From assembly GCA_947650365.1 (NCBI GenBank), contig OX393555.1:78125995-78189994 (forward strand): DNA of 64,000 bases. Reading direction: 5' to 3'. Below the pieces are notes generated by a model. The model saw only the letters and a program-made list of their open reading frames with translations, had not been told where the DNA came from and searched no databases. How positions within the stretch are numbered: position 1 is the stretch's first letter; the number at the start of each line of letters is the position of its first letter. Shown in pieces: positions 147 through 26,285 of this stretch. A program made the translations under genes and the position numbers. The DNA is from Chamaelirium japonicum. Taxonomy: Eukaryota; Streptophyta; Magnoliopsida; Liliales; Melanthiaceae.

Positions 147-2961
147 TCAGGGCTTGGCTACACTTGGAACACGTGACTTCTCTCCTTCAGATCCGCCACG
201 AGGTTTGCTCGCAACCGAAGCTTTAGAAGATCGGACACTGCTGACATGTGCCCTGAGTGCCTCTGCCGCTTTCTCGGTCGTCTCTTTGTAACTCTTGCAT
301 TCAGACAATGCATGCTCCAATGCCTTCTTGGAAGTCTCCTCCCTGACAGTAAAAGCAGCATGTTGAGCAGCAAGTCGTTCTTTCAGCTCCTTGATCTCGT
401 TGGTACGACCACAGGACACGTCCTCAACCTTGGAGAGTCGATTCTTCAAGGATTCAAGTTCGTGACCCTGCGCTTCGCAACGGTCCTGCAGCCCCTTGAT
501 CTCCAGCTTCCCCTTGCGAAGATCCTCGATTTTGGCCTTGAGAGAGGTTTTCTTCGAAGTCAAGAGCTCCCTCAGCCTATCTCTCTCCTCGCTCACAGCC
601 TTCAGTTCGGCTGTCAAACGGCTTACCTCGGAGGCGGCCTCCCGCTCTCCTGCTTTCCTAGAGAGGGAGCTTGTGATTCTCAAAACTGCTGAGCTCTGTA
701 GGAGAATAGAGAGTTAGAATTATTCCGAAAGTACAACTCGAATGAAAGATCAAGCAGATGCACATACCACTACATCTAGCCGATCGAAGGCTTCTTCAAA
801 ATTCGCTTCCGGAATATTGCAAAGCTTCCGGATCACGCTGGTCGGGTGGTTGATGTCAACATCACCCAAGCTCTTCATCTTCGGAGTCGAGCCAACAGGC
901 GCACCTGCAAACAACACAAGAGATCAAAGTGTTAGAAAATTTTCAAATATTTTCAAGCTTCAAAGACAAGACAGCCAATCAAAACAAGTTAGTACAGATA
1001 CCTGAAGCCTCGACTTGAGGAGCCTTTCCCTTCCCACGGTCGGAGCTCTTACCCTTGGGGGTCGATTTCTCCTTGATAGGGGTTGGCTCTGGCAAGGGTT
1101 GGGGGGTAGCATCACCCACCCGGCTTCCTCTCTCCATGTGAGCAGGAGAGGGAACATCCCGAGGAGGTGAGGCTCCCCCTTCGTCTTCTCGCCCGCTCGA
1201 ATTATCGAGCCCTGCTACCATGGCTGCTACCTCCTCAGCCAGAGATCGTGAAGGGCGTGGGGGTTGTTCAACCTCCATACCCCCGCTTGTAGTTGCCATT
1301 TCGATACGAGGAACCTCTGGAGGTATCTGATCGAGGGGTGTGGGGTTGCTTCCAACCCCACCACTCCCCGATAACTTGATCTTGAAGCGTAGAGGGTTCT
1401 TTTTCAATTCCCCAAAGTGATAAGCAGGAATCACTTTGGGACCATCGCCCGTTGCGTCCATAACTTCCTCCATCTTGCGAGCCTTACCCTCGTCTATGAG
1501 GATAGGCTGCGAGTCTTCGTCAGCACCACCAGTGGGGGTGGGAGGAATTTCTTCCTCGCCACCCCCATGTCTTTGACCACCATCAATGGGGGTGGGAGGA
1601 ATCTCTTCCTCACCACCCCCATCTTCTTCATCTTCATCTTCATCATCACCATCTCCATTTCCTTCGCCGTTGCCGCTGCTGTCGTCGGAATCATTCTCAT
1701 CACCATCATCTCCACCTTCCTCCTCTCTCTCTACTTCCTCTTCTTCTTCCCCCTTTGTCTCTTCCTTTTTCTTCTCCTCCTTAACTAACACTTTCCTTTT
1801 CTTCTTTGCTGGGCCCTTCGGAATCACCAGTTTCTCCTCCGAAGGCAAGCTGCGCCTAGCTCCGTAAGCCTTCTTCTCGAAACGAAGCTTTCTAACAATC
1901 TTTCCTGACTGAGGGTCCTCCTCGTAATCCGAGTAGATAACCTCATTATCTTCATAACGAAGCTTCGATCGGTGGAGGAGGTTGGCATTGCCATATCGAA
2001 CTGGGCAGTTCGAGAACTGCTTCCAAGACCGAGTCCCACAGGTCAACTCGAGAAAGAGGTTATCAACGGCCCCCACCTGCTCCGGAGGCCACGCAAGAGC
2101 TCCTCCTGCACAGAACATATATGTCTCTTCATGCACCTTGTATCGGGGAACCTCGGGAACAGACATTGGAGTCCAGGCACCCGACACCGACAGCGGCCAG
2201 TCAGTATAGAGTTTGTCAGAGCCAATGGTATCGATGATCGGGCGCAGGGCAGAGACACCCGTCAGATAGTAGAATGGGCTATCTTTCCTCCAGGCCCATC
2301 GGTTGTGATAGAAGAAATATCCAAACTCTATCCGAGCTTCTTCACCTTCGGGAAGGCTGGAATAGCATTCCCTCAGCTTCTTCTGGAAGTCCGACTCTAC
2401 GCGATAGAAAGCGTAGATGATCCTCCAGGAGTTTCCAGTCACCTGCCCGGGACAGAGACCAGAGATGTTCAGTAACCTCGCAGCGAAGGGAGGCAGTGGA
2501 AGGCGCAGTCCGCAGTTGAGCTGGCCGATCGTGACGATAGTTCCCATTACTTGCTCCTTGCTCGCGTACGAGACAAAGATTGTCCGCCTGTCAATGCCAA
2601 AAGCTGACAGAACTCCCGGAAGCGCTGGCCGGGCCTTCCCCTCAGTAAAGCATGCTAGCAGCTTCTGCAGTTTCTCCCTCTTCACGTCTGTGAGTTTGCC
2701 ACCCATGTTGTACCCGAATTCTGGTTCCACCGACAGAGGTAGCTGAGGGCGGAGGACAAACTTTGCCATGGGTATCTGCTCTGGCCTTGACGGTGCAGAA
2801 GCGAATCCCACTCCTTGGTGCCTCTTGCCCAACTGGCCAAGTTCGATTAATTCAGCCTTGCCTTTGCCTCGACCCTTCGGAGTGGAAGAAACTTCGACAA
2901 CTTCCTTGCCCTTCATCTTGGAAGGAACTGCACTCTTCTTCGAACTACCCGAAGACGCCAT
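147..2961 (-). CDS. Antisense additional gene (aORF) of Tat element, copy 1; Transposase_28-like protein with acidic region and coiled coil
   Basis: Function unknown. The main exon runs from an ATG at 2961 (protein begins MASSGSSKK) to about 1002. Two short introns with GT-AG ends lie at about 1001-905 and 767-696, and the last exon ends at 147. Order in the protein: a basic low-complexity N-terminus; a conserved region with MGTIVTIGQLNCGLRLPLPP and a SWRIIYAFYRVES block that resembles PF04195 (Transposase_28, 'putative gypsy type transposon'); a long Glu/Asp stretch near residues 410-480 following Lys-rich segments that could act in nuclear import; and a C-terminal exon that reads as a heptad-rich coiled coil. 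It is antisense to its host element and has its own TATA box. The copy looks whole by eye. Family assignment is by remembered pattern, not by search. Confidence 0.7.
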
Positions 2962-3077
2962 TCGATCGATCAAAAAAAGACAAAGAACAAGAGAACAGAG
3001 AAAGAAAGATCAGAAGCTCAGGCTCAGGACTTCGAAAAATTTCTGAAAGCGTGAGGCGAAAATGACAGCGAGAAAAA

Positions 3078-3086
3078 GCTTATAAA
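3078..3086 (-). promoter_or_regulatory. TATA box of aORF copy 1
   Basis: On the - strand the sequence reads TTTATAAGC, about 118 bases before the ATG at 2961. The same spacing (105-120 bases) and a similar C/G-rich then TTTATA context precede copies 2 and 3, which supports a real promoter independent of the LTR. Confidence 0.6.
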
Positions 3087-3419
3087 CCCGGGGTAAAACA
3101 GGCACGCAAATCGAGAAGACACTTGTCTTCACTATATCAAATCGCGTGTTTTTGTAGGTACACGTGGCATCCATCCGTAGCAAGCGCAAAACCAGGCGAA
3201 CAGTCGCGACCAGGCGAAACGTCAGACCACAGGTCCAAGCAAACCACCGGTCCAAGTAGACCGAACCGCCGGTTCATAGAAACCATCCAAGACAAACCAA
3301 AGATGCCAAAACAGAAAAATTGAACTCCATCGATATTTCAAGACTCTACCAAAGATCAAAGGATGAGAACGAGCTATACTACTTCCTCAAAAATACAGGT
3401 TCAAGACTTCAAACCTTGA
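3087..3419. other. Upstream region of aORF copy 1 promoter; no gene seen
   Basis: About 330 bases between the antisense gene's TATA box and the tandem array. It holds short dispersed CGGT/GGTC repeats (3180-3290) but no coding sequence I can support. Confidence 0.4.
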
Positions 3420-4755
3420 CCGGCTGATTTTAGCCAATCGGTCAAACTTGACCGATCGGCCAAAATCAACCGATCGGTCGATTTTCTACTGGATCTGGCA
3501 AAAAACGAGGTTTTTTGTCGATCACCCAAACCTTGACCGGCTGATTTTAGCCGATCGGTCAAACTTGACCGATCAGCCAAAATCAACCGATCAGTCGATT
3601 TTCTACTGGATCTGGCAAAAAACTAAGGTTTTTTGCCGATCACCCAAACCTTGACCGGCTGATTTTAGCCGATCGGTCAAACTTGACCGATCGGCCAAAA
3701 TCAACCGATCGGTCGATTTTCTACTGGATCTGGCAAAAAATGAGGTTTTTTGCCGATCACCCAAACCTTGACCGGCTGATTTTAGCCGATCGGTCAAACT
3801 TGACCGATCAGCCAAAATCAACTGACCAGTCGATTTTCTACTGGATCTGGCAAAAAACTAAGGTTTTTTGCCGATCACCCAAACCTTGACCGGCTGATTT
3901 TAGCCGATCGGTCAAACTTGACCGATCGGCCAAAATCAACCGATCGGTCGATTTTCTACTGGATCTGGCAAAAAACGAGGTTTTTTGCCGATCGCCCAAA
4001 CCTTGACCGGCTGATTTTAGCCGATCGGTCAAACTTGACCGATCAGCCAAAATCAACCGATCAGTCGATTTTCTACTGGATCTGGCAAAAAACCGAGGTT
4101 TTTTGCCGATCACCCAAACATTGACCGGCTAATTTTAGCTGATCGGTCAAACTTGACCGATCGGCCAAAATCAACCGATCGGTCGATTTTCTACTGGATC
4201 TGGCAAAAAACGAGGTTTTTTGTCGATCACCCAAACCTTGACCGGCTGATTTTAGCCGATCAGTCAAACTTGACCGATCGGCCAAAATCAACCGATCGGT
4301 CGATTTTCTACTGGATCTGGCAAAAAACGAGGTTTTTTGCCGATCACCCAAACCTTGACCGGCTGATTTTAGCCGATCGGTCAAACTTGACCGATCAGCC
4401 AAAATCAACCGATCAGTCGATTTTCTACTGGATCCGGCAAAAAACTAAGGTTTTTTGCCGATCACCCAAACCTTAACCGGCTGATTTTAGCCGATCGGTC
4501 AAACTTTACCGATCGGCCAAAATCAACCGATCGGTCGATTTTCTACTGGATCTGGCAAAAAACAAGGTTTTTTGCCGATCACCCAAACCTTGACCGGCTG
4601 ATTTTAGCCGATCGGTCAAACCTGACCGATCGGCCAAAATCAACCGATCGGTCGATTTTCTTCTGGATCGGTCAAAAAACCATGATTTTTGACCGATCAC
4701 CCAATCCTTGACCTGTTGAAATTGACCGATCAGTCAAAATTGACCGATCAGTCTT
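3420..4755. repeat. 117/118-bp tandem array with paired TTGACC palindromes, about 11 units
   Basis: The anchor CTGGATCTGG recurs at 3489, 3606, 3724, 3841, 3959, 4076, 4194 and 4311, so the period alternates 117 and 118. Units also mostly alternate between a CCGATCGGTCGA and a CCGATCAGTCGA version, which makes a dimeric higher-order repeat of about 235 bp. Each unit contains CCGATCGGTCAA, two bases, then TTGACCGATCGG (12-base inverted arms), plus a further CCTTGACCGG. The last unit decays near 4680-4755. It lies just before, or forms the start of, the 3' LTR. Confidence 0.9.
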
Positions 4756-4789
4756 TTTTATATACTAATATTTCGACGAGCTTCTTCGT

Positions 4790-5550
4790 GCCTTTTGAGA
4801 CAGGGGGTTGCTGTTTTTGCACCAAATCCAAGCCAGCCAGAACGAACTCTAGCTAACTTGGAGGGGGTAACTATGGGTGCAAATTTTGGTAAGAAGGTTG
4901 CCAACCACGGGACCCACCGGCCCTGCCTGGTGGGCCCCCGGAGACTACCACGGGACCCACCGGCCCTGCCTGGTGGGCCCCCGGAGACTACCACAGGACC
5001 CACCGGCCCTGCCTGGTGGGCCCCCGGAGACCGCAGCGGGACCCACCGGCCCTGCCTGGTGGGCCCCCGAAGGCTTTCAAGGGATCCATCGACCCTGCCT
5101 GTAGGATCCCCAGATACGGCAGCAGAAACCGCCATTTACCACCAGAGAATCCTATAAATAGCAGAGCCTTCGAATGTAAAAGGATCGAACTCTCAGTTCT
5201 AAAAACCAGAGCTCTGGGATTTCCAACTTCCCATCTACCATTTCTCTTTGATCTTCTTCTCTCCTTCGAAGAGATCAGAGTGTTTCTAGTGATACTCGGC
5301 CTGTCGAGATCACTTCGACATAAGTGTTAGTGAATTCGGGTTGCTCCCTATAGCACGGAGACGTAGGCTTCGGCTGAACTCCGAGATCACCTCTCGTGTC
5401 TACTCTCTGATTGCATATCTCTTTCTATTGACATATCAAAAGGCTTCAACTTCAATCAACAGATCGACCAACGATCTCCGACGTCAACTTCCACTTCAAT
5501 TGACTGGTGCTGCGAAAGTCTTTGGGTCAGCACGGAGATTTTCCCCCACA
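4790..5550 (+). mobile_element. Tat element 1 LTR (3' LTR), approximate left end
   Basis: The right end is CCCCCACA at 5550. It contains a GC-rich 43-bp minisatellite (about 4905-5105, unit with GACCCACCGGCCCTGCCTGG), a TATA box at 5153, and the R/U5 block shared by all Tat LTRs in the window. The true left end is not clear; the LTR may include the 117-bp array. The 43-bp units lie in U3 just upstream of the TATA box. Confidence 0.7.
5153..5160 (+). promoter_or_regulatory. LTR TATA box
   Basis: TATAAATA followed by GCAGAGCC. The same CTATAAATAGCAGA context is found in LTR A (15380-15387, - strand), LTR B (16341-16348, - strand) and the element 3 LTR (46179-46186, +), marking the retrotransposon promoter. 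Confidence 0.7.
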
Positions 5551-5603
5551 AGTCTGGTGGTGCCAGGTGTTGCATAGAGTTTCCCGCCAAAACTTTTCGG
5601 AAT

Positions 5604-5611
5604 TTATAAGT
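5604..5611 (+). promoter_or_regulatory. TATA box of aORF copy 2
   Basis: TTTATAAG, 118 bases before the ATG at 5722, the same spacing as in copy 1. It is preceded by TTTCCCGCCAAAA, which matches the TTTTCCCGCCATG that precedes the TATA of copy 3 on the - strand near 19505. Confidence 0.6.
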
Positions 5612-5721
5612 ATCGTCTCACAGTTCATTTTTCGCTGACGCTATCAAAAAATTTTCAGAGTAATCTTCTTTTGCACCTGAGTCCTTTACTCTCTGCTTCT
5701 TTCATTTCCCGTTCGGTTGCA

Positions 5722-8464
5722 ATGGCATCTGCTAGCTAGCTGCACCAAGAACATTGTCCCCTTGAAGATGAGGCAGTCCAAGGACAAGGCTACTACTGAG
5801 CCGTCTCCGCCGAAGGTTGCTGGCAAGGGCAAGGGCAAAGACAACCTTGGTGTCTTGGGAAAAAGGCACGTTGGCATGGGGTTCGCTTCCGCACCCTCTA
5901 AGCCAGAGGTTATCACCAAAGCTGGATTTGTCTTGGGGCCTATAAGGCCATTGGCTGAGGAGATCGTCTTCGACTACGGCATCGGTAAGAAGGTCACCAA
6001 TGTGAAGAGGGAAAAATGGGAAAAGCTGCTCTCATTCTTCACCGAAGGTATCCATCGTCCTGCCTTCGCCGGAGTGCAAGCGGCCTTCGGCATCGACAAC
6101 CGATCTGTCTATACCGAGGTGGCCAGCAAGGAGAAGATCATGGGCACCATAGTGACGATCGGAAAACTCAACTGCGGGTTGCATCTACCACTTTTGTTGT
6201 TCGCGGAAAGACTGCTGAACACGTTTGTGCTTTGCCCCGGACAGTTGACTGGAAATGCATGGAGAATCATCTATGCCTTTTGCCGGGTAGAGTCCAACCA
6301 TCAGGAGAAGCTGAGAGCCTGCTACTCCAGCATTCCGGAGTGTGAGCAAGCCCGGATCGAGCTGGGATACTTCTTCTTCCACTACAAGTGGGTATCGAGG
6401 AAGGATAGCCCTTTTTTCAATCTGCTTGGTGTTTATGCCTTCCGCCCCATCATCGACACAGTCCCATCGGACAAGCTCTACACCGATTGGCCCATCTCTG
6501 TGTCAGGAACATGGACTCCTTTTCCTATGCTAGAGACTCCTCGAACCCAGGTGCATAAGGAGGTGGGGAGATATGCCCCAAGGGGTGAGCTTTGTTGGCC
6601 TTCCGATCGGGTGGGGGCGATCGACAACTTGTTCTTGGAGTTGACCTGCGGGACAAGGTCATGGAAGCAGTTCTCAGACTGCCCGGTCCGCCACGACATT
6701 GCCAACCTGATGCATCGTCTGCCAGTGAGGTACGAAGACAACGACACTCTATACTCCGATTATGAGGAGGACCTCGACACCGGTAGGATCGTACGATATG
6801 TCCGGATCGAGAAGAAGGTGTACGATAAGAGAAAGCACACCGTGCCAGGCGAGGAAAGGCTGGTTGTGCCCATGAGGGGTCAAGTTAAAAGGAGAAAGGT
6901 GGAGAAGGTAGTGAAGGAGGAGAAGACAAAAAAGGAGAAGAAAGAAAAAGAAGATGAGGAAGAAGAAGAAGAAGAAGAAGGCGAAGGAGGAGGGGAGGAG
7001 AGTGGAGAAGAGGAAGAGGAAGAGGAAGAGGAAGAAGAGGAGGAAGAGGAAGAGAGCGAGGAGATAGAGGGAGGTGGAAGTGAAGGGGAGGGGGCACAGG
7101 GTCGAGATGATGTGCCCCCAACTTCACTTGGAGCTGACAAAGTACCTCCAATCGATGAGGCTAAGTCCCGTCGAATGGAGGATGATATTCATACGATAGA
7201 CGACGGCACAAAGGCGCTGATCGTCTATCGCTTTGACACTATAAAGCGCCACACACACATCAAAGTCAAATACTATGGAAGTGACGTTGTCTACGACGCA
7301 GTGCCGATCACTCAGGTGCCGCCTGAAAGTCTTCACTAAGGTGAAGCATCTGAGAGTGGGATAGTTGAGGCCGAGAGGCGGAGGCTGGCTCCTCGGGATG
7401 ATGCTGCCAAGGTGGCAGCTGAAGTCATGGCCCTGATATTGACGTTGCGGTCGATAGAAGATGTTCACGGTGAGGGGAGAGATTTGTCTCCCCCCGAAGT
7501 CCCCAAAGTCGCTCCTTCTGAGCCCAAGGGAGATGAGGGGCGGGAGAAGGTGCCTGAACAAGGCTCTATTCCTGTCCCGGCTATCAAAGTCCTTACTCCC
7601 AAGGGGAAAGGAGCCGATCGGCGGAAGGTATCTGCCCAACCCCGACATGATGTCTCTGCTGGCTGGAGTAAGTTTCTCCTCTTAGCTTTCTTCTGTCTTG
7701 ATTGAATGTTGGATATGTCTTGACTTTGAACTTCTTGCTTGCAGGTACTCTAGGTGCTCCTGGTGGTACGCAGTCAACGATGAGAGAGTTGGGTGCGGTT
7801 GATATCAATCACCCAAAGGGCGTGTTGAGGAAGCTTTGCAACCTTCCTGATGGGACCCTCGAGGAAGCCTCTGACAGGCTCGATGTGATAGTGAGTAGCC
7901 TCTAGCATTATCTTGAGTTGTAGTATCTTTCTCTGATTTGTCTAACTTGTTTTTGTTTCCATGCAGGTGTCTGTTGTGCTGAAGATAAACAGCCAGCTAT
8001 ACAAGAAAGCCAGGGAGAAGGAAGCTTCCGCAGAAATAATGCGCCCGAATGCCCTCTTGGAGGAGGCTAATGGCGAGAGGGAGAAGTTGGCAGCAGCTTT
8101 GTCTTCAAGTCAAGAGCTTGCCCGCAATGAGGAGTACATGAGGAAGAATTTGGAGGCCTCTTATGCGAGCTTGGATAAGGAACACCACGACCTCAAGAAT
8201 AGATTCTTCAAAGTGGAGACTCTTACCGTCCAGCGAATTGAAGAAAATAAGAAGTTGAAGGCAGATCTTGCGGCCAAGGAGGAGGCCCACATGCTAGAAG
8301 TTGAACAGCTCAACGTTGATTTGGAAAGTTACAAATCAACAGCGGAAAAAGCCATGGAAGCCCTCAGAATGGTTTCAGGCAGAGGTGCTCAGTCTTCTAA
8401 GGCGTCGGTCGCCAGCAAGACTCGTGGAGATAGATCTAGGGCATCTAGTGTCGAGAAGCCTTGA
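5722..8464 (+). pseudogene. Antisense additional gene (aORF) of Tat element, copy 2
   Basis: Homologue of copy 1, antisense to the gag-pol of element 2. The conserved core (MGTIVTIGKLNCGLHLPLLL, then AWRIIYAFCRVES) and the segment ending TDWPISVSGTWTP are about 70% identical to copy 1 by eye. A very long Glu-rich run lies at about 6890-7070. Two GT-AG introns are visible: 7668-7744 (opens GTAAGTTTC, closes TTGCTTGCAG) and 7891-7966 (opens GTGAGTAGCC, closes CCATGCAG). The middle exon encodes a well-conserved LGAVDINHPKGVLRKLCNLP segment. The last exon (7967-8464) is a coiled coil. The copy looks broken, with about two or three breaks. Function unknown; Transposase_28-like by pattern. Confidence 0.7.
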
Positions 8465-8599
8465 TGTATCTTGACGTTGTACTTGCATTTTGTATGGAAT
8501 GAAATACTTCTTGTTTTGAATGTCATCCCTATCTTTTTGCTGAATGTAATCTTTATCTTTCTGCTGAATGTTGTGAATGGGATGTTTACTAGCTTGCAT
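8465..8599 (+). other. 3' flank of aORF copy 2
   Basis: T-rich sequence after the stop, with several TTGTTTTGAATGT-like stretches and a GAATGAAATA that could serve as a poor polyadenylation signal. No gene. Confidence 0.3.
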
Positions 8600-9095
8600 C
8601 GAGTGATTGAGAGTGTAAGGGGTTGTGTCGCAACACAAACACCCAAACATTAGTCGATAAGTCAATTAAGTATTGTGCTGTCTCACAATACTTGAATTAT
8701 ATTTTTCTACCTGTAAGGGGTTGCGTCGCAACGCAAACACCCAAACATTATTTGATAAGTCAGTTAAGTATTGTGCTGTCTCACAACACTCAAACTATAT
8801 GTTTCTGCCTGTTTAGGGTTGTGTCGCAACACAAACACCCAAACATTACTCGATTAGCCAGTTTAAGCGTTATGATGTCTCACAACGCTTGAACCATATA
8901 TTTCTGCCTGTTAGGGGTTGTGTTGAAACACAAACACCCAACATTATTCGATTATTCAGTTTAAGTGTTGTGCTGTCCCACAACACTTGAACTATATGTT
9001 CTTGCCAGTCAGGGGTTGTGTCGCAACACAAACACCCCAAACTATTAGTTGAATAGTCAGTTTAAGCATTGTGCTATCTCATAATGCTTGAACTA
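8600..9095. repeat. 98-bp tandem repeat with palindromic core, 5 units, between convergent genes
   Basis: The core GGGGTTGTGTCGCAACACAA recurs at about 8619, 8717, 8815, 8914 and 9012. TTGTGTCGCAACACAA can fold on itself, and each unit has a second pair of GTTGTGCTGTCTCACAAC type. The block lies exactly between the 3' end of the aORF (+) and the 3' end of pol (-, 9171). A related block follows aORF copy 3 at 16930-17110. Confidence 0.85.
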
Positions 9096-9170
9096 TAGGT
9101 TATTGAGTTAGTTCATTGAATTGAAATAGACAAGATTGAGATCAATACATACATTCATTCAAAACATGAT

Positions 9171-10683
9171 TTACATCAAGGGTAGAATATTTTGAGATAC
9201 TTGGCATTCCAAGCTCTTGGTAGCCTATCTCCTTCAGGCGAAATTAGGCGATAGGACCCTTTGCCTCCAACTGATTCAATGATATAAGATCCTTCCCAGT
9301 TGGGAGCTAGTTTTCCACTATCGCACTCCCTTGTGTTTGAAAATACAGCTCTAAGGACTAGATCACTAATTTGGAACTGTCTTCTTCTAACTTTCTGATC
9401 GTAGGCTCACTTGATCTTCTGATGGTAATTAGCAAAGTGGAGGATTACCTGATCGCATATTTCTTTAGAGAAATCGAGGTCATCAGTCCGAAGTTCATCA
9501 TTAACCCCTTCTTCAATGGCTCTAGTCTTCGGAGTGTTGGAGATGGCCTCCGTTGGGAGAACTGCTTACGATCCGTAGGTTAGGCGAAAAGGAGAGAATC
9601 CAGTCGATCGTCTTGGAGTAGTTCGATAGCCCCACAAGACCTCTGGTAGGACCTTCTCCCACAATCCTTTCCTGTCACCTAGTTTCTTCTTGAGTAGACC
9701 AAGGATAGCTCTGTTAGAGGCTTCCGCTTGACCATTGTATTGAGGGTATCTTGGTTTTAAGTAGAACAGTTTGATACCGTGGTTTAGACAGAATCTCAGA
9801 ATTTATCGGAATCGAATTGAGCTCCATTGTCAGCAATTAGGACTTGGGGTGTGCCAAATCTTGAGAAGATGTTATGTCTAACGAACTTGATGACTTCATC
9901 GTCGGTTTCTCGAAAGAGTGGCACCGCTTCCACCCATTTGGTGAAGTAATATGTGTCCAGCAACAGATACTTCTTATTGCTTGGTGATGGTGAGAAATGA
10001 CCCAAGAAGTCCAACCCCCATTGGTGGAAGGGCTAGGGACTTGTTAATGGATGGAGTTTATCTGCAGTGAGATGGATAGCTCTAGCGTGTCGTTGACAAG
10101 GCTCGCACCTTTGAATGACCAGGTGGGCATCCTTTGTTATGGTTGGCCAGTAATAACCTTGAAGTTTCATCTTGGCTTCCAGAGATCTTCCACCTGAATG
10201 ATTTCCACAAGCCCCGGATTGAATGTTAGTTAGGATCGCCTTTGCTTGCCGGGGACCAACACATTTGAGCAGTATCTCACTGTGTGATCTGAAATAGAGA
10301 TCTATTTCTTGGAGACTATAGCATGGAAGTTTCCTTTGGAGTTTTCTGCCATGGATTGGATCTTCTGGCATTTTGCCTTCTTTGAAGAAGTCGAAGATTG
10401 GCTGTCTCCAATCTTTGAGTTCGTGTGCCATAGTGAGATTGAAGGTTGGCCGTCTCCAACCCTCATATCCTTCAATCATGACAACGATCTGTTGCTCGAT
10501 GGTAGCCTTGGACGAATCTTGATAGTCGATTTGAATTCGCCTTTCTCCGAGCGAGTCTCCGAGCACCAAAGCAGCATTAGCTAGGGTATCTGCCTCTCGA
10601 TTTTCTACTCTTAGGATTTGGATGAATTCAGTGCCAGCGAAACGTTGTTGGTGATGTCGCACCAGAGCTAGATAATGCTGCAT
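9171..10683 (-). mobile_element. Tat element 2 integrase region and C-terminus of pol
   Basis: Recognisable parts in - strand order: a zinc-binding segment with CEPCQRHA (about 10105), the core with YYFTKWVEAVPLF and FGTPQVLIADNGAQFD (about 9800-9960), and the typical Tat pol tail ending WNAKYLKIFYP before a stop at 9171-9173. It would insert the DNA copy into the host genome. Fossil; the reading frame is interrupted. Confidence 0.8.
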
Positions 10684-10739
10684 CTTTTTTTCTCACGCTG
10701 TGTACTCTCCATTAATCTGTCTAACTATTAGTTGGGAGT

Positions 10740-11562
10740 CGCTGTAGATGGTGAGTTAATCTACCCCCAGGGATTCAGCAATCAATAATTCGGTAATGAG
10801 CGCCTCATACTCGACTTCGTTGTTGGTGGCATTAAACCCAAGGAGAATAACATTTTGAAGATGTTCAATCTCGGGAGATATTAAAACTATCCCAATTCCC
10901 GAACCGATAGCACCTGAAGCCCCATCAGTGTAGAGCTTCCATCGAGTTGACGAAGTAGTGGGAGTTTCAAGGCTTGGATTGAGGGTCTTTGGAATAAGAT
11001 TAAATAGAGGCTCGTCACCGTCTTCTAGACGTATTTCAATGTCTTCCTCCCAAGTGATGAGATCCTCCACAGGGAAGTCGGCAAGGAAATCAGCAACTGC
11101 CTGCCCTTTGAGAGAAGTGTGAGGTACGAACTGAATACCAAGAGTACTCATCTCAATTACCCATTTTGTCATCCGACCCGCTCGACCTGCCTTATCGAGG
11201 ATGTCATTGAGTGGGAGCTCTGAGACAATCGTTATCGGGTGAGGGACGAAGTAGGGTCGAAGACGTCGTGATGCCGTAAGCAAGGCCAGTGTAACCTTCT
11301 CGATCTTCGAATAATGAGTCTCTACTGGAAGAAGGGTATGGCTGATGTAGCAGACTGGACATTCTGTGCCTTCTCTTCTGCTGGCCAAGACTACACTGAT
11401 AGCTTGATCGATAACGGCGAAATAGAGCCAAAGATCTTCCTTTGCAAGTAGAGCTACCAAGATAGGAGCTTGCATGAGATAGTTCTTGATGCCCTGGAAG
11501 GCTTGTTCGCAAGTTGGACTCCATCCGGAGGTGTCTGCCTTCCGTAATTTGTCGAAGAGCAA
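10740..11562 (-). mobile_element. Tat element 2 RNase H and second (archaeal-type) RNase H
   Basis: The first RNase H/connection part contains CEQAFQGIKNYLMQAPIL and YISHTLLPVETHYSKIEK. It is followed by a second RNase H with YTDGASGAIGSGIGIVLISP and ATNNEVEYEALI. The tandem arrangement of the usual RH plus aRH is the diagnostic feature of the Tat lineage among plant Ty3/gypsy elements. Confidence 0.85.
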
Positions 11563-11599
11563 CTATTGAAAGATTTGGAGATGAACCGGTTGAGAGCAA

Positions 11600-12450
11600 C
11601 TAATCTTCCAATGAGGCATTGTACTTCCTTTCAATTGGTAGGTGAGGGCATATCGAGGATTGCTCGAATTTGGTCGGGGTTGGCTTCGATGCCTCTCTTG
11701 ATCACAAGATGACCTAGGAATTTGCCCGATTGAACTCCGAAGGCACACTTGGCTGGGTTGAGCTTCATGCGGTACTTTTGGAGGATTTGAAATGTTTCAG
11801 CCAGGTCGGAGAGATGGCTCTCATGACTGGAGCTCTTGGTGAGGAGATCGTCGACGTAGACTTCGACGTTGCGCCCGATTTGTTCTTCGAACATCGTCGT
11901 GACTAGCCTTTGATAGGTTGATCCAGCATTCTTGAGGCCGAATGGCATTACGTTGTAGCAGTAGAGACCTCTATGTGTCACGAAGCATGTCTTCTCTCGA
12001 TCATCCGGATGTAGGGGGGTTTGGTTATACCCGAAGTACCCATCCATGAAGGATAGGAGCTCGTGGCCAGCAGTGGCGTCAACGAGTTTGTCTACCCTTG
12101 GCATGGGGAATAAGTCTTTGGGGTAGGCCTTGTTGAGGTTGGTAAAATTGATGCAACCCTGATCTTTCCATTCTTCTTAGGTACTGCGACGATATTGGAG
12201 ATCCAAGTAGGGTACTCTACTTCACGAATGAAACCTGCCGCGAGTAGTTTAGTGATCTCCTCTTGAACTGCAGCTTGACGTTCTGGTCGGATTGTCCGAG
12301 GTTTTTGCTTGATGGGTTTCGTTCCTTCTTTGATAGCGAGTCGATGACGTGCGTCATCCGGATTAATCCCGGGCATATTTTCGAAGCACCAAGCGAAGAC
12401 ATCAATATTGGATTGAAGGAAAGATACCACGTCTCGCACTTCTGCGTCAC
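11600..12450 (-). mobile_element. Tat element 2 reverse transcriptase
   Basis: RT palm motifs are readable: a YFGYNQTPLHPDDREKTCFV segment, MPFGLKNAGSTYQRLV, and the catalytic YVDDLLTKS (about 11848). The N-terminal part (PEIRD-like fingers) is at about 12190-12440. It copies genomic RNA into DNA. Fossil, several breaks. Confidence 0.85.
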
Positions 12451-12583
12451 TGAGACCGATACCAGTGAATGTCTCTCGTGGGAGATCGCCACTGCTGATG
12501 TTTACTCAAATGATTTCTTCGATTGAAGGTGAAGCCTCCCACTCGATTGATGGAGGTTCAGACAGTGGGAGCTCCTTTAGTTG

Positions 12584-13204
12584 CTAACTTAATGAAGGTC
12601 CACCTTCATCCCTCGGACGCTTTGGTGGTGCTAGATCTATTCGATGATCTGTCTTTGCCATAGCTGCTTCACAAGAACGCCCTACCTGTTGGTCGCCTCG
12701 AATGCAGATAATGCCATCTTCCATTGCAAACTTAAGAAGTTGATGATAGGAGGAGGAGATGGCATTGATCTGGTGAAGGAATGGCCGCCCGAGGATGATG
12801 TTGTAGTTGGACATCCCTTCAATTATGGCAAACCTCACGGAGACTCGAGTCTCTCGACTTAGGTCCAGGGTGAATTTCGATTCGCCCATGGTCATGCTTT
12901 GCTCACCATTGAAGCCCGTGATCACTGTTGGGACAACTTCGAGGCTTGAGTACTTATGTCCCAGACACTTGAAACAATCTGAGAACATGATATCGATTGA
13001 ACTTCCAGTGTCGATGAGAATGCGATTGACGGTGCTCCCATCGATGATGAGCTGCAGGACCAAGGGATCTCGATGCGGAGTATGGACTCCTTGGAGGTTG
13101 AAGTCATTGAAAATAATCGATGGCCAAGCCAGGCCTTTTACGGGTTTCTCAACCCACGTATCTTCTTTATTCGCTGTGGGACGGATATTGAAGATGTGCC
13201 GCAC
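12584..13204 (-). mobile_element. Tat element 2 aspartic protease region
   Basis: The pepsin-like retroviral protease signature DTGSS lies in RILIDTGSSIDIMFSDCF (about 12990-13040), with the downstream NYNIILGRPFL flap-like motif typical of Tat and Athila protease. It matures the Gag-Pol polyprotein. Confidence 0.8.
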
Positions 13205-13399
13205 TTACCGGTCGACCTCTTTCCCGGTCAGAGTTATGCAATGCTTCGTGAATGCCGAAAATGTCTACTTGTACAACAACTGGCGATGGATTGGTCGAGA
13301 TGCAGTGGACCCAACAAGCTTCCTTCCCTTTTGATGAGGAAGGTGGGCGCCGGTCGCGTCCGTTATTGACGAACTCCCATAGATAACATTCTCGTAGGA

Positions 13400-14900
13400 G
13401 ATCCTCCAAGTAATAGTTTAGTCGGTGGCTGCGATGGAAATTGCAGTAAACGGATTTGTCGATGGTGAGTTTGGTATCGGGATGCAATGGATTCGACTGT
13501 CGGAGGAATTCTTCGTGCTGGATCTGATCAAGAATCTACTCGATTGGAAGAGTCCAATCAATGAACACAATTTTCTTCGGCGGTGATCTGCGTCCGTCTT
13601 CTCTTCGTCGCTTGGATGGTGAAGGTGCCGGTGCCTCTGCATTATGGGCCCTGGCAGTATGCTTCGGTGCTTCTCTCTCGACGGGTCGCCGTTTGATTTC
13701 ACATCCCTTCCGAGCGATCTGATCATCTTCGACCTCGATCTCCCTCTGGATTCGGTCAAACATCGAACCCAATGAAGGTAGGGGATTGCGGATAAAGTTG
13801 TTGTAGATGTGCAGATCGAATCGGAGTGCATTTTGGAAGACCAACATGATGGCCTCATCATCCAGATGTCGTCCGGAGAGAGCAGCGTGTTCATTGCGGA
13901 ATCATCGTGTGAAGTTATGAAGACTCTCCTCGGCTCCCATTCTCAGCCGATAGAGGGAATCGAGTTTCTTCTCCGGCTTTAGGTTGAGTTGATAGTGCTA
14001 CACGAAATGGTTCACAAGTACTCCAAATTGGGTGATAGACCTAGCACGAAGGTTGTGATACCAATCAAGAGATGGTTCGTCAAGGCTTCCGGTGAAGGAT
14101 CGGTAGAGCACGTTGTTCTCTTCTTCATGCGGAGTTAGAGCTTGTTTGAATGCTAGGATGTGGAGGGTTGGATCCCCTTTGAGACAGTTGCACTTTGGGA
14201 GAGTCAGAGTCCTCCAGCCTCTCGGGAAGGATGATTGAAATAAGCTCCGATGGAGGGGTCCAGTGGAAGAATATCCTTCTCTACTATCATGCCCCCGACC
14301 TGGATGCAGATCGAGGGGTAAGATCGAGAGGTTTTGTCCACGCCCCTGAGTATTTGCCGGATTAATTTGATGACGAAGATCGATCTCAGCTTCATATTGG
14401 AGTGGGAGGGATGGAGAAGCTCTGCTCTTCGATGGAGCTTCTTTCGTCTGATGCCTCACCCGTAGATTGGGTTTCAACTGTGCCTGTCTAACACAGTTGC
14501 GACCCGAGGATGATTGAGATGATTGGTCGTTAATACGATCCCAAAGACTTTGCTTCCACGAAGCTGTAGAGGGAGTGGGGTTGCGACGACCTCTCTTGGG
14601 GACTGCAGTGCCCATAGACCTTCGTAGGTCAGAGTGAACCGATTGTCGAGGTAGATCGACTCTCTTTTTGAATGAAGGGATGGGGAGGGCAACTTCGGCC
14701 TCAGAATGTGCCTTCTTGAGGGCGTCTCTCTCAGCTGTGAGCGTGGCATTCTGCTTAGCTAGCTATAGCAGCTGGAAGTCGAGCGCCGAGATCTGGTAGG
14801 TGGATGGAGGGTTCTCCGTAGGAGTGGGGGCAGTTTGCCCGATTGACTGTTGAAAAGGCGGAGGAATTGGTCGATCGACCGATCTTCCACTTCCTGAACG
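13400..14900 (-). mobile_element. Tat element 2 gag region
   Basis: Contains the retrotransposon gag core, with HILAFKQAL and the SLDWYHNLRARSITQFGVLV block (about 14010-14160). The N-terminal part is at 14620-14900, including TYQISALDFQLL, which recurs in the gag remnant at 49430-50060. Gag packages the RNA in the virus-like particle. Fossil with several breaks. Confidence 0.75.
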
Positions 14901-14906
14901 AGCTGC

Positions 14907-15697
14907 TGTAGGGGAAAATCTTCGTGCCGACCCGAAGACTTCGCCACACCAGTCAATTGAGGTTCGAGTCGAAGATCGTTGTTCGATCAGTTGATTGGAG
15001 TCGCCGTTCTCAATACACAAACAGAGAGAGATGCAATCAGAGAGGAGGTTGACACAATGTGTGATCTCGAAGTTCAGCCGAAGCCTACGTCTCCGTGCTA
15101 TAGGGAGCAACCCGAATTCACTAATACTTTGGTCAAAGTAACCTCGACAAGCCGAGTGTCACTGATCTCTTTGACTTCTTCAAAGACAAGAAGAAGATCG
15201 AAGAGAGTTGAAGGATTGAAAGCGGGCTATCTCACAACTCTGGTTTTGAAATGGATATCAACTGATGGCACTGATCTATTTTCAGAATTATGTTTCTGGT
15301 TCTGGGTTCTGGAATTTGGGTTTTTGCTCTGGATTTTGGAACTTGAGATTTTCCATCCTTTTACATTCGAGGAGTCTGCTATTTATAGAGAAATACTGGG
15401 GGTAAAAGGCGATTTCTGCTGTCGAATTTGGGGATCCTCCAGGTAAAGCTGGTGGGCCCTGCTACTGTCTCCTGGGGGATGCCACAGGCTCTTGGGCCCA
15501 CCAGGCAGAGCCGGTGGGTCCCGCGGTAGTCTTCGTGGGCCCACCAGGCAGGGCCAATGGGTCCCGCGACAGTTTTTATGGGCCCACCAGGCAGGGCCAG
15601 TGGGTCTTGTATGTTTGCAGACTTCTTGCCAAAATTTGCACCCACAGCTGTCATCTCGGTGACAGTGAGAGGCTGTCCGAAGTTGAGTCGTTGACTC
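14907..15697 (-). mobile_element. Tat LTR A (- orientation)
   Basis: On the - strand it carries the 43-bp GC-rich units (about 15440-15620), the TATA box at 15387-15380, the R/U5 block with GCACGGAGACGTAGGCTTCG (about 15100-15081), and an end TTTTCCCCTACA at 14907. The sequence just inside is gag-like, not a primer binding site. The outer end is approximate. Confidence 0.7.
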
Positions 15698-15920
15698 ATT
15701 AACGAGTTTCAGGACGAGGTTGATTTTGATGTATGTTGCTTCCCTCTGGATGATCCTGATGCCTTGTCTTTGCTATTTAGAGAAAGCGAAGGATGCAACT
15801 AGATTGCCGGTGTCCTAAAGGTTGTATGCTCAACCGAGGGGGCTGGGAAGTTTGGTTATCTAGATTGGTTGTTTGCTTAACCGATCTGATACTTGTTGTA
15901 GATCGGAATGAGCTTCTTGA
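15698..15920 (-). other. Leader between primer binding site and LTR A
   Basis: About 220 bases without coding content. It lies downstream of the primer binding site of LTR B and upstream of LTR A, so LTR A sits where the 5' leader or gag start is expected. Confidence 0.5.
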
Positions 15921-15941
15921 TCGATCCCACAGACGGCGCCA
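15921..15941 (-). promoter_or_regulatory. Primer binding site of LTR B
   Basis: On the - strand TGGCGCCGTCTGTGGGAT follows the LTR end (…CCCCCA at 15947) after a five-base spacer. TGGCGCC is the usual complement of a tRNA 3' end in Ty3/gypsy elements. I did not identify the tRNA. Confidence 0.8.
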
Positions 15942-15946
15942 AACTA

Positions 15947-16905
15947 TGGGGGATGATCTTCGTGCTGACCTGAAGACTCCGCCCAACCAGTCAATCGAGT
16001 TGAGTTGAAGATCTGGTCGAGTGTTTGTCTAGGTTGTTGATTCGAATATCATTCATAGAAGCCTTTGAGCTTAGATTTTGAATAAGAATAAAAATAGTAG
16101 ATTGACACAAGGTATGATCTCGGAGTTCAGCCGAAGCCTACGTCTCCATGCTTTAGGGAGCAACCCGAATTCACTGACACTTTGCTTGAAGTGACCTCGA
16201 CAGGCCAAGTGTCACTGATCTTTTCGAAAAGAAGATTAAAGGAAATGGAATATCAAAGGGTAAGGATATCAGAGCTCTGGGTTTTTGAAAGTCTGACCTC
16301 TTCTCGAATGTTTCGATCCTTTTACATTTGAAGAGTCTGCTATTTATAGACTTTCTTGGGAAGTAAGCCATGGTAAAAGGCGGTGTATGTTGTCATCTCT
16401 GTGGATCCTCCAGGCTGGGCTGGTGGGTCCCCGCTGTCGTCTTTGTGGACCCCCCAGGCAGGGCTGGTGGGTCCTGCTGTTGTCTCTGTGGACCCCCAGG
16501 CAGGGCTGGTGGGTTCCGCTGTCGTCTCTATGGACCCCGCAGGCAGGGCTGGTGGGTCCTGCTGTTGTCTCTGTGGACCCCGCAGGCAGGGCTGGTGGGT
16601 CCCTTTGTCGTCTTTGTAGACCCCCCAGGCAAGGCTGGTTGTTCTCGCTGTCGTCTCTGTGGACCCCCCAGGCTGGGCCGGTGGGTCCCGCTATCGTCTA
16701 TGTAGACCCCCCAGGCAGGACTGGTGGGTCCCGCTGTCGTCTCTAGGATCCCCCAAGCAGGGCTGGTGGGTCCCGCTGTCGTCTCTGTGGACCCCCCAGG
16801 CAGGGCTAGTGGGTCCCGTTGTTGTCTCTGTGGACCCCCCAGGCAGGGCTGGTGGGTCCTGCTGTTTGTGGGGCTTTTGGTCAAAATTTGCACCCATAGG
16901 CAAAA
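15947..16905 (-). mobile_element. Tat LTR B (5' LTR, - orientation)
   Basis: The inner end is fixed by the primer binding site. It has the R/U5 block (about 16127-16160), a TATA box at 16348-16341, and about 11 units of the 43-bp GC-rich minisatellite (16400-16870, unit with CCCCCCAGGCAGGGCTGGTG on the + strand). The outer end is approximate; it abuts the 3' repeat block of aORF copy 3. Confidence 0.75.
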
Positions 16906-17211
16906 ATATATAGTTTTGATGTTGTGATGCTGTGCAACTCTTAACTAGCAGATCGACTAATAGTTTGGGTATTCGTGTTGCGACATGACCCCTTATAGGC
17001 AGAAATAACTAGTTAGGGTGTTGCGATACGGGACAACCCCTAATCAACAAATAGTTGGGGTGCTTGTGTTGCGACACAACCCCTAGCTGGCAGAAATATT
17101 CAATACAAGTTAGCAACCCTTCCTTTCAAAACATTCAATATCGAAGAAACATTGTTATTCAAAACATCCAAAAATTTGTATTGTTCAAATTACAGGTACA
17201 AGAGGTAGATA
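16906..17211 (-). repeat. 3' flank of aORF copy 3 with the palindromic repeat
   Basis: Reverse-complement relatives of the 98-bp units: GTGTTGCGACATGACCCC (about 16975), GTTGCGATACGGGACAACCC (about 17020) and GTGTTGCGACACAACCCC (about 17066). This shows the palindromic block is a fixed 3' companion of the aORF. Confidence 0.7.
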
Positions 17212-19376
17212 CATCAGGGCTTAGCCACGCTAGGCGCCCTAGCCTATCTCCATCAGAACTGCCGCGGGCCTTGCTTGCCACGGAAGCCTTTGAAGATTGG
17301 GCATCGTTGCTGTGAGCTTGCCTGAGGGCTTCCACGGCTTTCTTAGCTGTCGACTTGTAGCTAGCCAAGTCGATGTTCAACTGTTCGATTTCCAGCTCGT
17401 GGGCCTCCTCTTTTGCAGCAGCCTCAGCCTTCAACTGCTTGATCTCCTCGTTGCATTTGAAGGTGAGGTCCTCTATCTTAAAGAATCTATTCTTCAAGTT
17501 CTGGAGTTCTTTATTGGCGGCTACAAACACGGCCTCTATCTTTTTTTCTCATGTGCGCTTCACTGCGATCAGACTGATGACTCGAGGATAGTATCGTCGA
17601 TAGCTTCATCCTCTCGTAATTAGCCTCCTCCAGGAGGGCATTCAATCAGGTTATTTTAGTCGAAGCCTCTCTCTCACCAGCCTTCTTAAAGACCCTGCTG
17701 TTTAGCTTCAGTAAGGCAGACATCTGCATATCAACAAAGACAAGTCAGAGAGAAATCAGATTGAAGTACAACTACCTGAGACGAAGTCAAACTACTCACC
17801 ATAACTTCGAGCCTGTTAGATGTCTCTTTGAGGGTCGCGTCAGGCAAGTTGCAGAGCTTCCTCAACACCCTAGTAGGACGGTTGATGTCCACCTCGCCCA
17901 AGTCCCACAGCATAGGCTGCGGGATGCCAGGTGCACCTACATGCAAAATATTCAAAGTGCTCAGACATGTTCAACTTTCAATTCAATCAAAATGAAATAA
18001 AGAGTTAAAATTTACTCATGTCGATAGAGCCTCCGTGCGAGGGTTGAGCCGGTCCCTTCCCTCGATCAGATCCCTTCCCCTTGGGGGTGGGAGTCTTCTT
18101 CGCTGGGACAACAATCGGGCTAGACTGCTCCTGCTCCTTCCCCTGTTCCTTCATCTCAGGGGTCAGGACCGGCTCGGCCATCTCCTTCTCCCCTTGACCC
18201 TCATCCCCCTTCGGTTCGGGGGGAGGGACATCAGGAGGCAATGAAGCTCCTCCTTCATCATGCATCTCGTCTGCCCCCTAGAAAAGGGCAAACATCAGAG
18301 CGGCGACCTCTACTGCAACCTTGGTCACATCGCTCTGAGGGGCCAGCCTTGGTTTATCAATCTCCAGGCCTCCGCTCGCTAAGGCTTGCCCCGTCGAAGC
18401 CTCGCCCTGGCGGTGACCTTCGGGCGACACCTAGGAGATGAGCGTCGGGTCGTAGATTACATCACTACCCGAGTAGTTCACCCTGATGCATGTAGGACGC
18501 TTCAAGGTCTCGAAATGGTAGATGATGGACACTTTCTTGCCGTCATCTACCGTGTCGAGATCATCCTCCATTCGACAGGCCTTAGCCTCATCGATCGGAG
18601 GCACTTGGCCCGCATCTGGAGGGGTGGGGGGCATATCCTCCCGATCCCTCGCCCCCTCCTCTTCGCCTTCTTCTTCCTCTTTATCCTTGAAACCCACTGA
18701 TAGTGGTAGAAGAAGTAACCCAGCTCGATCCTGGCTTGCTCGCCGTCAGGAATGCTGGAGTAGTAGGCCCTCAGCTTCTCCTGATGATCGGATTCCATCC
18801 TGTAGAAAGCATAGATGATCCTCCATGCATTTCCTATCAACTGTCCAGGCAAAGACTGGACGTATTCAGCAACTTGGCCGTGAACGGGAGCAGGGGTGGA
18901 CGCAGCCCGTAGTTGAGTTGCCCGATCATCACGATCGTGCCCATGATCTTCTCCTTGCTGGCTACCTCCGTGAAGACCGATCGCTTGTCGATCCCGAAGG
19001 CAGCCTGTACCCCGGCGAGCACAGGGCGGTGGGCACCTTTAGTAAAGAAGCTCAGGAACCTCTCCCACTTCTCCCTTTTGGCGTCAGTGGGCATCCTGCC
19101 GATCCCATACTAAAAAATAGGCTCCTCGGGCAGAGGCTTCAACGGCCTCAACATGAACTCAGCCTTAGGGATGTGTTCCGGCTTGGTGGGAGCAGAAGTG
19201 AATCCAACGCCTAGGTGGCTCTTGCCGAGGACGCCGAGGCTACCCTTGGCCCTGCCCTTCCTCGCGATCTTTGGCTATAAGGGCTCAGTAGTGGCCTTCC
19301 CCTTCTTCAAACCATCGCGCCGAGACGACTTCACCTTGGGAGGAACGATGTTCTTGGTGCACCTTGTAAAGGCCAT
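17212..19376 (-). pseudogene. Antisense additional gene (aORF) of Tat element, copy 3
   Basis: Starts at an ATG at 19376 (MAFTRCTKNIVPP, matching the N-terminus implied by copy 2). The conserved core with EKIMGTIVMIGQLNYGLRPP and NAWRIIYAFYRMES is near 18800-18970. The middle exon (17800-17936) encodes LGEVDINRPTRVLRKLCNLP, and the C-terminal coiled coil with KNRFFKIEDLTFKCNEEIK lies at 17240-17530. GT-AG introns are seen at about 18015-17937 and 17799-17724, matching those of copies 1 and 2. Clearly broken, with roughly six or more breaks and an internal loss. It is the only remaining coding part of element 3. Confidence 0.7.
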
Positions 19377-19480
19377 CGCAACCGAACGAAAGAACAAAAA
19401 GCAAGAGCAAGAGTTGAGGGCAAAAGCAGAGAAGTCAGAAATTTTCTAACAGCGTGGGGAAAAATGAACTCCGGAACAAG

Positions 19481-19490
19481 ATTTATATGC
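19481..19490 (-). promoter_or_regulatory. TATA box of aORF copy 3
   Basis: GCATATAAAT on the - strand, about 105-115 bases before the ATG at 19376, preceded by TTTTCCCGCCATG. The position parallels copies 1 and 2. Confidence 0.55.
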
Positions 19491-19659
19491 CCCGAAAAAC
19501 ATGGCGGGAAAATGTATGTGACACATGGCGCCACCAAACTGGCGGATGACGAAGCAACAGGCCAGACGAAGCGCTAGGAGGTCAAACGAAGGGATAGGAC
19601 AGACGAAGCGTTAGGCTAGACGAAGCGATAGGCCAGAAGAAACGATGGGAAAGATGAAA

Positions 19660-25621: not shown

Positions 25622-26285
25622 CGCTACAAGAAATAGATTTTTTACCGACGAAAATTTATAATTCCGTCGGTAATAATATAAATTTTACCGACGGGAACAA
25701 TATTTTCCGTCGGTAATATAACTTAGATTTTTTTTAATTTTTTTTGCATATTTATTATCGACGGTTATATATTATCCGTCAGTAATATATAATGTTACTT
25801 TTTACCGACGGAACATATAAGTTCCGTTGGTAAAAATCAACGACAAATCGCAGGGTTTTTACCGGGTCTCTAGAAAAAATCAAACCCTACGATTTGTCGT
25901 TAATTTTTACCGACGGAACTTATATTTTCGTCGATATAATAACTTTTTACCAACGGAAATATATATTCCATCGGTAAAAATCAACGACAAATCGTAGGGT
26001 TTTTACCAGGTCTCTAGAAAAAATCAAACCCTACGATTTGTCGTTGATTTTTACCGACGGAACTTATATTTTCGTTGGTATAATGACATTTTACCGACGG
26101 AAATATAAATTCTGTCGGTAAAAATCAATGACAAATCGCAGGGTTTTTACCGGGTCTCTGGAAAAAATCAAACCCTGCGATTTGTCGTTGATTTTTACCG
26201 ACGGAACTTATATTTTCGTCGGTAAAAAGTCATTATACCGACGGAAATATAAGTTCCGTCGGTAAAAACCCTGCGATAAATCAGC
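25622..26285. repeat. CACTA left terminal inverted repeat and subterminal hairpin repeats
   Basis: The terminal repeat of about 13-16 bases is followed by many TTTTACCGACGGAA motifs in both orientations, the usual binding sites of the TNPA-class protein. Three long hairpins lie in tandem at about 25829-25912, 25971-26055 and 26116-26203. Each has arms AACGACAAATCG and CGATTTGTCGTT extending outward into the TACCGACGG motifs, and a loop with GGGTCTCT. Confidence 0.9.

Follow-up and report, generated by a model that had tools for sequence, protein, structure and literature searches.

A three-exon antisense gene of the TRP28 type and a palindrome-rich array in Retand-like retrotransposons of Chamaelirium japonicum: a candidate regulator of its own element

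The gene copies and the elements that carry them

This work concerns a stretch of 64,000 nucleotides (C7:78125995-78189994, hereafter the window) from the 1.52 Gb genome of Chamaelirium japonicum (3,253 contigs). The window contains three copies of one gene: copy 1 is open (2961-147, minus strand), copies 2 and 3 are decayed (5722-8464, plus strand, and 19376-17212, minus strand). We propose that it is an antisense accessory gene of the TRP28 type, belonging to Retand-like long terminal repeat (LTR) retrotransposons, and that its product is a nuclear regulator of its own element, a proposal to which we give even chances. An earlier model-made reading of the DNA, from here on the original prediction, had recognized three homologous copies at about these places, and sequence comparison agrees. 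It had also described the gene as kept in three elements, and as one frame followed by a coiled-coil piece. Neither description holds: copies 2 and 3 have decayed by stops, frameshifts and loss of core sequence, and the gene has three exons.

In copy 1 exon 1 (1002-2961; 653 complete codons plus a single base of a codon that intron 1 splits; no stop) encodes a basic start, the core with a match to Transposase_28, a motif resembling a nuclear localization signal (NLS), an acidic stretch and a linker. It is followed by intron 1 (905-1001, 97 nt, GT-AG, phase 1), exon 2 (768-904, 137 nt), intron 2 (696-767, 72 nt, GT-AG, phase 0) and exon 3 (147-695), which encodes a coiled coil and the conserved tail SSKASVASK.RG and ends with the stop codon at 147-149. 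Exon 2 holds the conserved block DVDINHP...IRKLCN; the original prediction was right about the presence of the block (D(I)NHP...(L/I)RKLCN) but had assigned it to the linker, whereas it lies on an exon of its own.

Copy 2 has the same architecture, with both GT-AG introns (72-97 nt in the two copies) at identical places and in identical phases (1 and 0). Its exon 1 (5722-7667) is broken by a stop five codons past the ATG, by a long frame in another register and by an in-frame stop at 7337; intron 1 (7668-7744, 77 nt), exon 2 (7745-7890) and intron 2 (7891-7966, 76 nt) follow, and exon 3 (7967-8464) is open down to its stop. The remains of copy 3 (17212-19376, minus strand) consist of core pieces at 19247-18849 and 18849-18685, exon 2 at 17940-17800 and exon 3 matches at 17723-17243; there are frameshifts at 18849 and around 17545, in-frame stops, and most of the core after 18685 is gone. 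As predicted, a TATA box precedes each ATG: TATAAG at 3079-3084 (minus strand, 123 nt upstream, counted from 3084) in copy 1, 5605-5610 (plus strand, 117 nt) in copy 2 and 19482-19487 (minus strand, 111 nt, from 19487) in copy 3. The core identity of copies 1 and 2, put at about 70% in the original prediction, was measured as 64-65%; at the DNA level they match best over a stretch of 1.16 kb, at 67%.

The protein opens with a basic segment, which is followed by the core (about 315 residues, carrying the Transposase_28 match) and then by a basic patch, an acidic stretch, the linker, the exon 2 block and the coiled-coil exon. The predicted Transposase_28-like core was matched in copies 1 and 2, in both cases below the Pfam cut-off of 26.2 bits (E 2.1e-5, 25.1 bits and E 0.004, 17.8 bits, respectively), while three of four scanned relatives from elsewhere in the genome (L001, L007 and L049) exceeded the cut-off and the fourth (L061) did not. 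The basic patch directly behind the core reads KKKRKV in copy 1 (1789-1806, minus strand), a sequence which we take to be of the nuclear-import type, and VKKRRV, VKRRKV or variants of these in the other subfamily (defined below); three consecutive basic residues occur within 45 residues past the core in 65 of 68 loci. The glutamate-rich middle and the coiled-coil end of the original prediction are also present: the acidic stretch of copy 1 has 49% D/E over 71 residues, and the heptad pattern of its exon 3 was beaten by none of 500 shuffles. The tail SSKASVASK.RG is invariant across the three window copies. Taken together, the sequence makes it probable that the product is a nuclear protein. 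A scan of viral contigs found no relative.

Copy 2 is antisense to the gag-pol of its element, as had been predicted, and the same is true of copy 1, whose gag-pol was located just outside the window in L069, the 10 kb stretch to the left of it. On the plus strand of L069 the gag frames of element 1 lie within 3243-5711, the reverse transcriptase (RT) at 6191-6661, and integrase frames extend to 9116. Copy 1 lies on the minus strand, 526 nt past the last pol frame, and is followed by the antisense promoter, a tandem array (3383-4740) and the 3' LTR (4741-5550, plus strand; the right end was mapped at 5550, the left end not exactly). The LTR end at 5550 matches L069:3078, the start of what we take to be a primer binding site. 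The 5' LTR is truncated (L069:2881-3078), and its remaining 198 nt are 98.5% identical to the 3' LTR.

In element 2 the pol pieces (integrase zinc domain, RNase H, RT and protease) lie at 10033-13204 on the minus strand, opposite to copy 2. This element has no 3' LTR of its own, because the 3' LTR of element 1 abuts it. The segment 5202-5550 was considered as the 3' LTR of element 2 and rejected: it is the end of the element 1 LTR and belongs to a young LTR family (of 3,555 candidates 40 were scored, and the 39 among these that lie beyond the window were 97-99% alike). The gene thus lies antisense between pol and the 3' LTR, with the full order seen in element 1 and the position relative to pol in element 2.

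The same arrangement was found elsewhere in the genome. When the coordinates of 351 distinct listed gene places were compared by script with those of 264 distinct listed RT places, 18 pairs fell within 10 kb. All 16 pairs within 6 kb, among them the two of the window, were on opposite strands with the gene 3' of the RT at 5.2-5.8 kb; two of the 16 are equally spaced on C12 and could be a single duplicated stretch. The remaining two of the 18 were cross-pairs between the neighbouring window elements 1 and 2. From the gene and the layout we infer that the lineage is Retand-like.

Conserved introns and selection across the genome

Searches of the genome for the gene returned 5,979-9,806 candidates each, of which the best 122-150 per search were scored. 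These numbers rule out confinement to the window locus, a possibility raised in the original prediction; copies occur genome-wide. A Transposase_28 (PF04195) match with E<=1e-3 was present in 137 of the best 150 scored places, and those listed were all above the cut-off. For the analyses below we used the loci L001-L068. These represent 67 places, as L003 and L022 coincide, and 65 of the places are not window copies. "Subfamily 1" (L009-L038) was picked by the core of copy 1 and "subfamily 2" (L039-L068) by that of copy 2; L009 and L039 are copies 1 and 2 themselves. Being top scorers among thousands of candidates, the loci lean towards well-kept copies. They were chosen by likeness to a window core or to PF04195, and exons 2 and 3 played no part in the choice.

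Exon 2 was sought in the 60 loci L009-L068 and in copy 3, and was matched in 57 of these 61. GT stands directly 3' of it in 53 of the 57; an in-frame YAG precedes exon 2 in 54 of 57 loci and exon 3 in 47 of 56. Acceptors were chosen by their YAG end, thus the acceptor AG frequency of 1.00 holds by construction. Intron 2, measured in 47 loci, has a length of 71-81 nt; its donor, GTRAGT, was compared in 18 lineages less than 85% alike (G 1.00, T 0.94, fifth base G 1.00). In the subfamily 1 alignment each of the four sites retains its GT or AG in 27 or 28 of 29 loci; in subfamily 2, intron 2 keeps its GT in 24 and its AG in 23 of 29. The start ATG is kept in 29/29 and 26/29 loci, respectively. 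With GT-AG ends, a donor consensus, conserved place and phase, and a frame that stays intact across the junction, both introns have the features of spliceosomal introns. Their persistence through transposition would be explained if the template of reverse transcription is the sense RNA, where the splice signals run backwards and an intron is not recognizable as such.

Selection on the protein was estimated from the ratio of nonsynonymous to synonymous substitution rates (dN/dS). Of the 68 cores, 66 were used, two shorter than 300 codons being dropped. Pooled core dN/dS was 0.14-0.29 in every dS bin above 0.02 and 1.14 in the bin below it, which holds three pairs; the bins cover 1,990 of 2,145 pairs, the other 155 lacking a usable dS below 3. 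A codon model fitted to the 66 cores gave omega 0.201 (kappa 4.8). The core values are pulled down by the choice of loci for core-likeness, and exons 2 and 3 provide a fairer test. Exon 2 gave 0.41 in subfamily 1 and 0.35 in subfamily 2, the first 106 codons of exon 3 gave 0.29 and 0.32, respectively, and the acidic and linker segments of exon 1 gave 0.32 in subfamily 1.

The constraint is specific to the reading frame. In a six-frame check of the core and exon 3 the gene's own frame was lowest every time (0.11-0.16 for the core). Wrong frames on the gene strand gave 0.85-1.9 (0.85-1.83 for exons 2 and 3), and treating the introns as coding sequence gave 0.38-1.22. On the gag-pol strand, the two frames with third positions elsewhere than those of the gene gave 0.95-3.3. 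Coding on the sense strand was rejected as the source of the constraint: the sole low frame on that strand (0.16-0.42) shares the third positions of the gene, and was weaker than the gene's own frame in four of four tests. The original prediction had suggested selection on the protein and named a dN/dS near 1 as the contrary outcome; the ratios found are far below 1. This frame-specific dN/dS also rejects neutral relics as an explanation for the family as a whole, although the description is true of copies 2 and 3. Judging from these sequence data, it is almost certain that we are dealing with a real, selected, split gene.

Elements 1 and 2 allow a comparison with pol in one and the same element pair, where dS is near saturation and the ratios are accordingly soft: the gene had dN/dS 0.13 (core), 0.20 (exon 2) and 0.19 (exon 3), and pol had 0.08 (protease), 0.09 (RT), 0.13 (RNase H) and 0.15 (integrase). 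The constraint on the gene is near that on pol.

Promoter-like sequence and upstream arrays

The promoter which the original prediction had assigned to the antisense gene is supported at the level of promoter-like sequence. Of the 68 loci examined, 62 have a recognisable start, and in 49 of these TATAWR occurs within 60-160 nt before the ATG, at 105-125 nt. In three upstream control windows of 100 nt the motif was present in 0 or 1 of 62 loci, in two windows within the gene in 0 and 2 of 62. Counted by distinct lineages, 10 of 15 have a TATA-type box. The motif CACGTG, presumably a G-box, is found upstream in 30/30 subfamily 1 and 17/30 subfamily 2 loci. About 25 nt before the TATA box of copy 2 there is an E2F-like site, TTTCCCGCC (5580-5588). 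Of the 30 loci in subfamily 2, 11 have such a site before the TATA box, where shuffled sequences gave 1.5 on average and 5 at most; of the 30 in subfamily 1 none has. As a lead, these sites could tie expression to S phase.

Further upstream lie tandem arrays. The array of element 1, between the antisense promoter and the 3' LTR (3383-4740), has a unit of about 117 bp and contains 22 exact copies of the palindrome CCGATCGG; the array upstream of copy 3 (19657-21700), whose unit changes from about 156 to 172 bp, contains 21. The array upstream of copy 2 is that of the neighbouring element 1. An array was detected upstream of the gene by Tandem Repeats Finder in 67 of 68 loci, and units of the arrays of copy 1, copy 3 or L069 were matched further upstream in 65 of 68. 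The unit of the longest array measures 117-119 bp or double that in 22/30 subfamily 1 loci, and 153-157 bp in 13/30 subfamily 2 loci, with four more near double.

The palindrome is the commonest 8-mer of the upstream sequence, with 561 copies in 69 upstream stretches (mean of Markov controls 2.9), a count inflated by tandem copying, by the shared place of L003 and L022 and by the array common to L009 and L039. At least two copies occur in 62 of the 69 stretches and in 16 of 18 lineages, and the density falls from 7.8 per kb upstream to 0.1 per kb within the gene. For sites with at most one mismatch, the commonest spacing in the copy 1 and copy 3 arrays is 18 bp.

Several other repeats were noticed in and beside these elements. 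Between the last exon of copy 2 and pol there is a 98-bp tandem array with TTGTGTCGCAACACAA-type dyads (8614-9105), a second, different dyad-rich array within the same element. In L069:1-2880 the truncated 5' LTR of element 1 (cut at 2881) is preceded by an array like that upstream of copy 3, inverted, which is perhaps the upstream region of a further element's antisense gene. A GC-rich 43-bp tandem repeat in or beside LTRs (4904-5123, 15435-15607 and 16387-16859) is common to several elements. More relatives of the LTR region occur at 45884-46555 and 50296-50404, therefore the window holds further Retand-like remains. A direct repeat of 1.3 kb (21703-23000 and 43414-44715), with 90% identity and an offset of about 21.7 kb, may represent the two LTRs of one large or nested element. 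A second, distant RT (58128-58596, minus strand) has 31-42% identity to the RT of element 2 and belongs to another kind of element. Nested inverted repeats at 25815-26268, spaced by 144 nt, resemble tandem copies of a small foldback element, and in 60001-64000 C strongly outnumbers G (skew -0.37 and -0.45), which sets this segment apart within the window.

Possible role and known counterparts

What stands of the original prediction is an antisense gene with promoter-like sequence whose protein is under selection; its being kept in all three window copies does not stand. It had rightly called the function of this gene type not established. The role that we suggest is read from sequence: the antisense place, the conserved introns, selection in all three exons, the NLS-like motif, the acidic stretch and the coiled coil, which is clear in copy 1. 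An antisense transcript would start from its own TATA-type promoter and be spliced into an mRNA, which would be translated into a nuclear protein of about 880 residues, dimerising through exon 3. This protein would regulate the transcription or chromatin of its own element, and its most plausible target would be the palindrome array between the antisense promoter and the 3' LTR. Such a combination of protein and array would give the element the means to control its chromatin or to unlock it, much as VANC acts with tandem repeats. That the protein is a regulator of its own element seems to us slightly short of an even bet.

A number of observations weigh against this proposal. Copies 2 and 3 are dead, and the heptad pattern of copy 2 exon 3 is within chance (72 of 500 shuffles). 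Among the Pfam matches listed for the gene there is no DNA-binding domain, a profile search of PDB with the core gave nothing credible (best E 0.11), and a structure model of the core made from two sequences had a confidence (pLDDT) of 30 and was not used. The evidence for selection is tempered by the choice of loci and the near-saturated dS mentioned above, and by the gene dS of elements 1 and 2 (1.4-2.5), which exceeds that of pol (0.8-1.2); parts may have been exchanged between elements and have separate histories. Another piece of the array unit, GGCAAAAA, is kept as well (313 copies), and within the unit the palindrome (561 copies) does not clearly stand out by its conservation. Given this second kept piece, the tandem copying, the shared loci and a possible common descent of arrays at different loci, the abundance of the palindrome need not reflect selection. 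Finally, W-boxes overlap the array sites, therefore a host factor could be the binder.

This last point leads to the strongest of the alternatives, that host WRKY factors use the array as an enhancer through its W-box pairs, which would make the gene stress-responsive, and that the protein does not bind it. Counted on both strands, 70.2 kb of upstream sequence contain 1,304 TTGACY sites, where first-order Markov controls have 89 on average, and the G-boxes fit the same idea; the shared unit, however, is the whole dyad around CCGATCGG and not TTGACC alone, and we consider this explanation rather unlikely. Somewhat less likely still is a helper of integration or nuclear import, a protein which enters the nucleus with the cDNA complex of the element and aids integration or targeting, the array being unrelated. 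The NLS-like motif and the pol-like constraint would suit such a protein, and a role in the pre-integration complex is raised in PMC7264820, but an antisense promoter apart from gag-pol would be odd for a particle component, and an integrase-linked domain was not seen among the gene's Pfam matches.

The protein might instead dampen the sense transcription of its own element, in the manner of the HBZ/APH proteins of human T-cell leukaemia viruses (HTLV). HBZ, as presented in PMC10186651, is likewise antisense, spliced, nuclear and coiled-coil; here, however, no bZIP domain appeared among the listed Pfam matches of copy 1 exons 1 and 3 (for exon 3 the best 25 of 34 weak matches), the TATA promoter sits outside the LTR, and steady self-repression would be of little gain to the element, so we hold a repressor of this kind to be improbable. 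Least probable is that the antisense RNA is the working product, pairing with sense RNA and feeding or dampening silencing, with the protein incidental. The antisense position would allow this, and such control is known for Ty1 (PMC12786077, in part). Against it, splice sites and start codon are kept, and the constraint tracks the gene's codons in three exons, as the wrong-frame and opposite-strand values show; as sole function the RNA is ruled out by this frame-specific constraint.

Returning to the proposed regulator, its closest known relative is the antisense TRP28 gene of Retand elements (aORF-3R; Silene Retand ORF4 and PRARE clusters; PMC11963269 and PMC7264820, both in part), which shares Transposase_28, the antisense position between pol and the 3' LTR and the presence of arrays in that region. 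That antisense extra ORFs are known, as the original prediction had said, is borne out by the survey in PMC11963269: antisense TRP28 genes occur in 97% of recently active Retand clusters, tandem arrays in about half of the elements and Smc-like domains in other antisense ORFs, and for TRP28 DNA binding is predicted and a regulatory role proposed. Transposase_28 was found in 23% of Retand elements in PMC6317226. The gene type is therefore already published. For the present gene we could resolve three exons, of which the last is given to the coiled coil, whereas PMC11963269 tallies ORFs singly. The word intron is absent from the main texts of PMC11963269 and PMC7264820, and among the literature matches listed, in which subscription journals are thinly covered, there was no description of introns in this gene; neither the intron layout nor the palindrome array was found in the literature covered.

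Where ORFs are annotated singly, parts of one gene may end up under the separate names TRP28 and Smc. A model with three exons, promoter, NLS-like motif and coiled-coil exon lets RNA-seq pipelines seek spliced transcripts and tells which protein to express, and the palindrome array offers a target for a direct binding test; the split-gene anatomy together with the array beside the promoter gives a testable idea of function.

A second relative is gene23 of the maize element Grande, also an antisense gene, which according to the account in PMC7264820 (in part) is transcribed from its own promoter and encodes a nuclear protein; the same paper calls for a look at spliced antisense transcripts. HBZ of HTLV-1 (PMC10186651, in part) is alike in working only, as an antisense, spliced and nuclear dimeriser; in our gene no bZIP match was seen and the promoter is not in the LTR. 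The remaining parallel comes from the VANDALs, which are another class of element. In Arabidopsis their anti-silencing VANC proteins act with fast-changing non-coding tandem repeats, which vary between related elements (PMC5735166 and PMC10398659, in part), and here too the likeness is in working only; what our elements have in common with them is the co-occurrence of gene and array. In its fullest form, which we consider doubtful, the proposal would be that each element encodes a dimeric nuclear protein and, beside its 3' LTR, an array of palindromic sites to which it binds, a self-contained and co-evolving system of anti-silencing or activation that works like VANC but is unrelated to it, and that the Smc-like antisense ORFs of the Retand survey are the last exon of the same gene.

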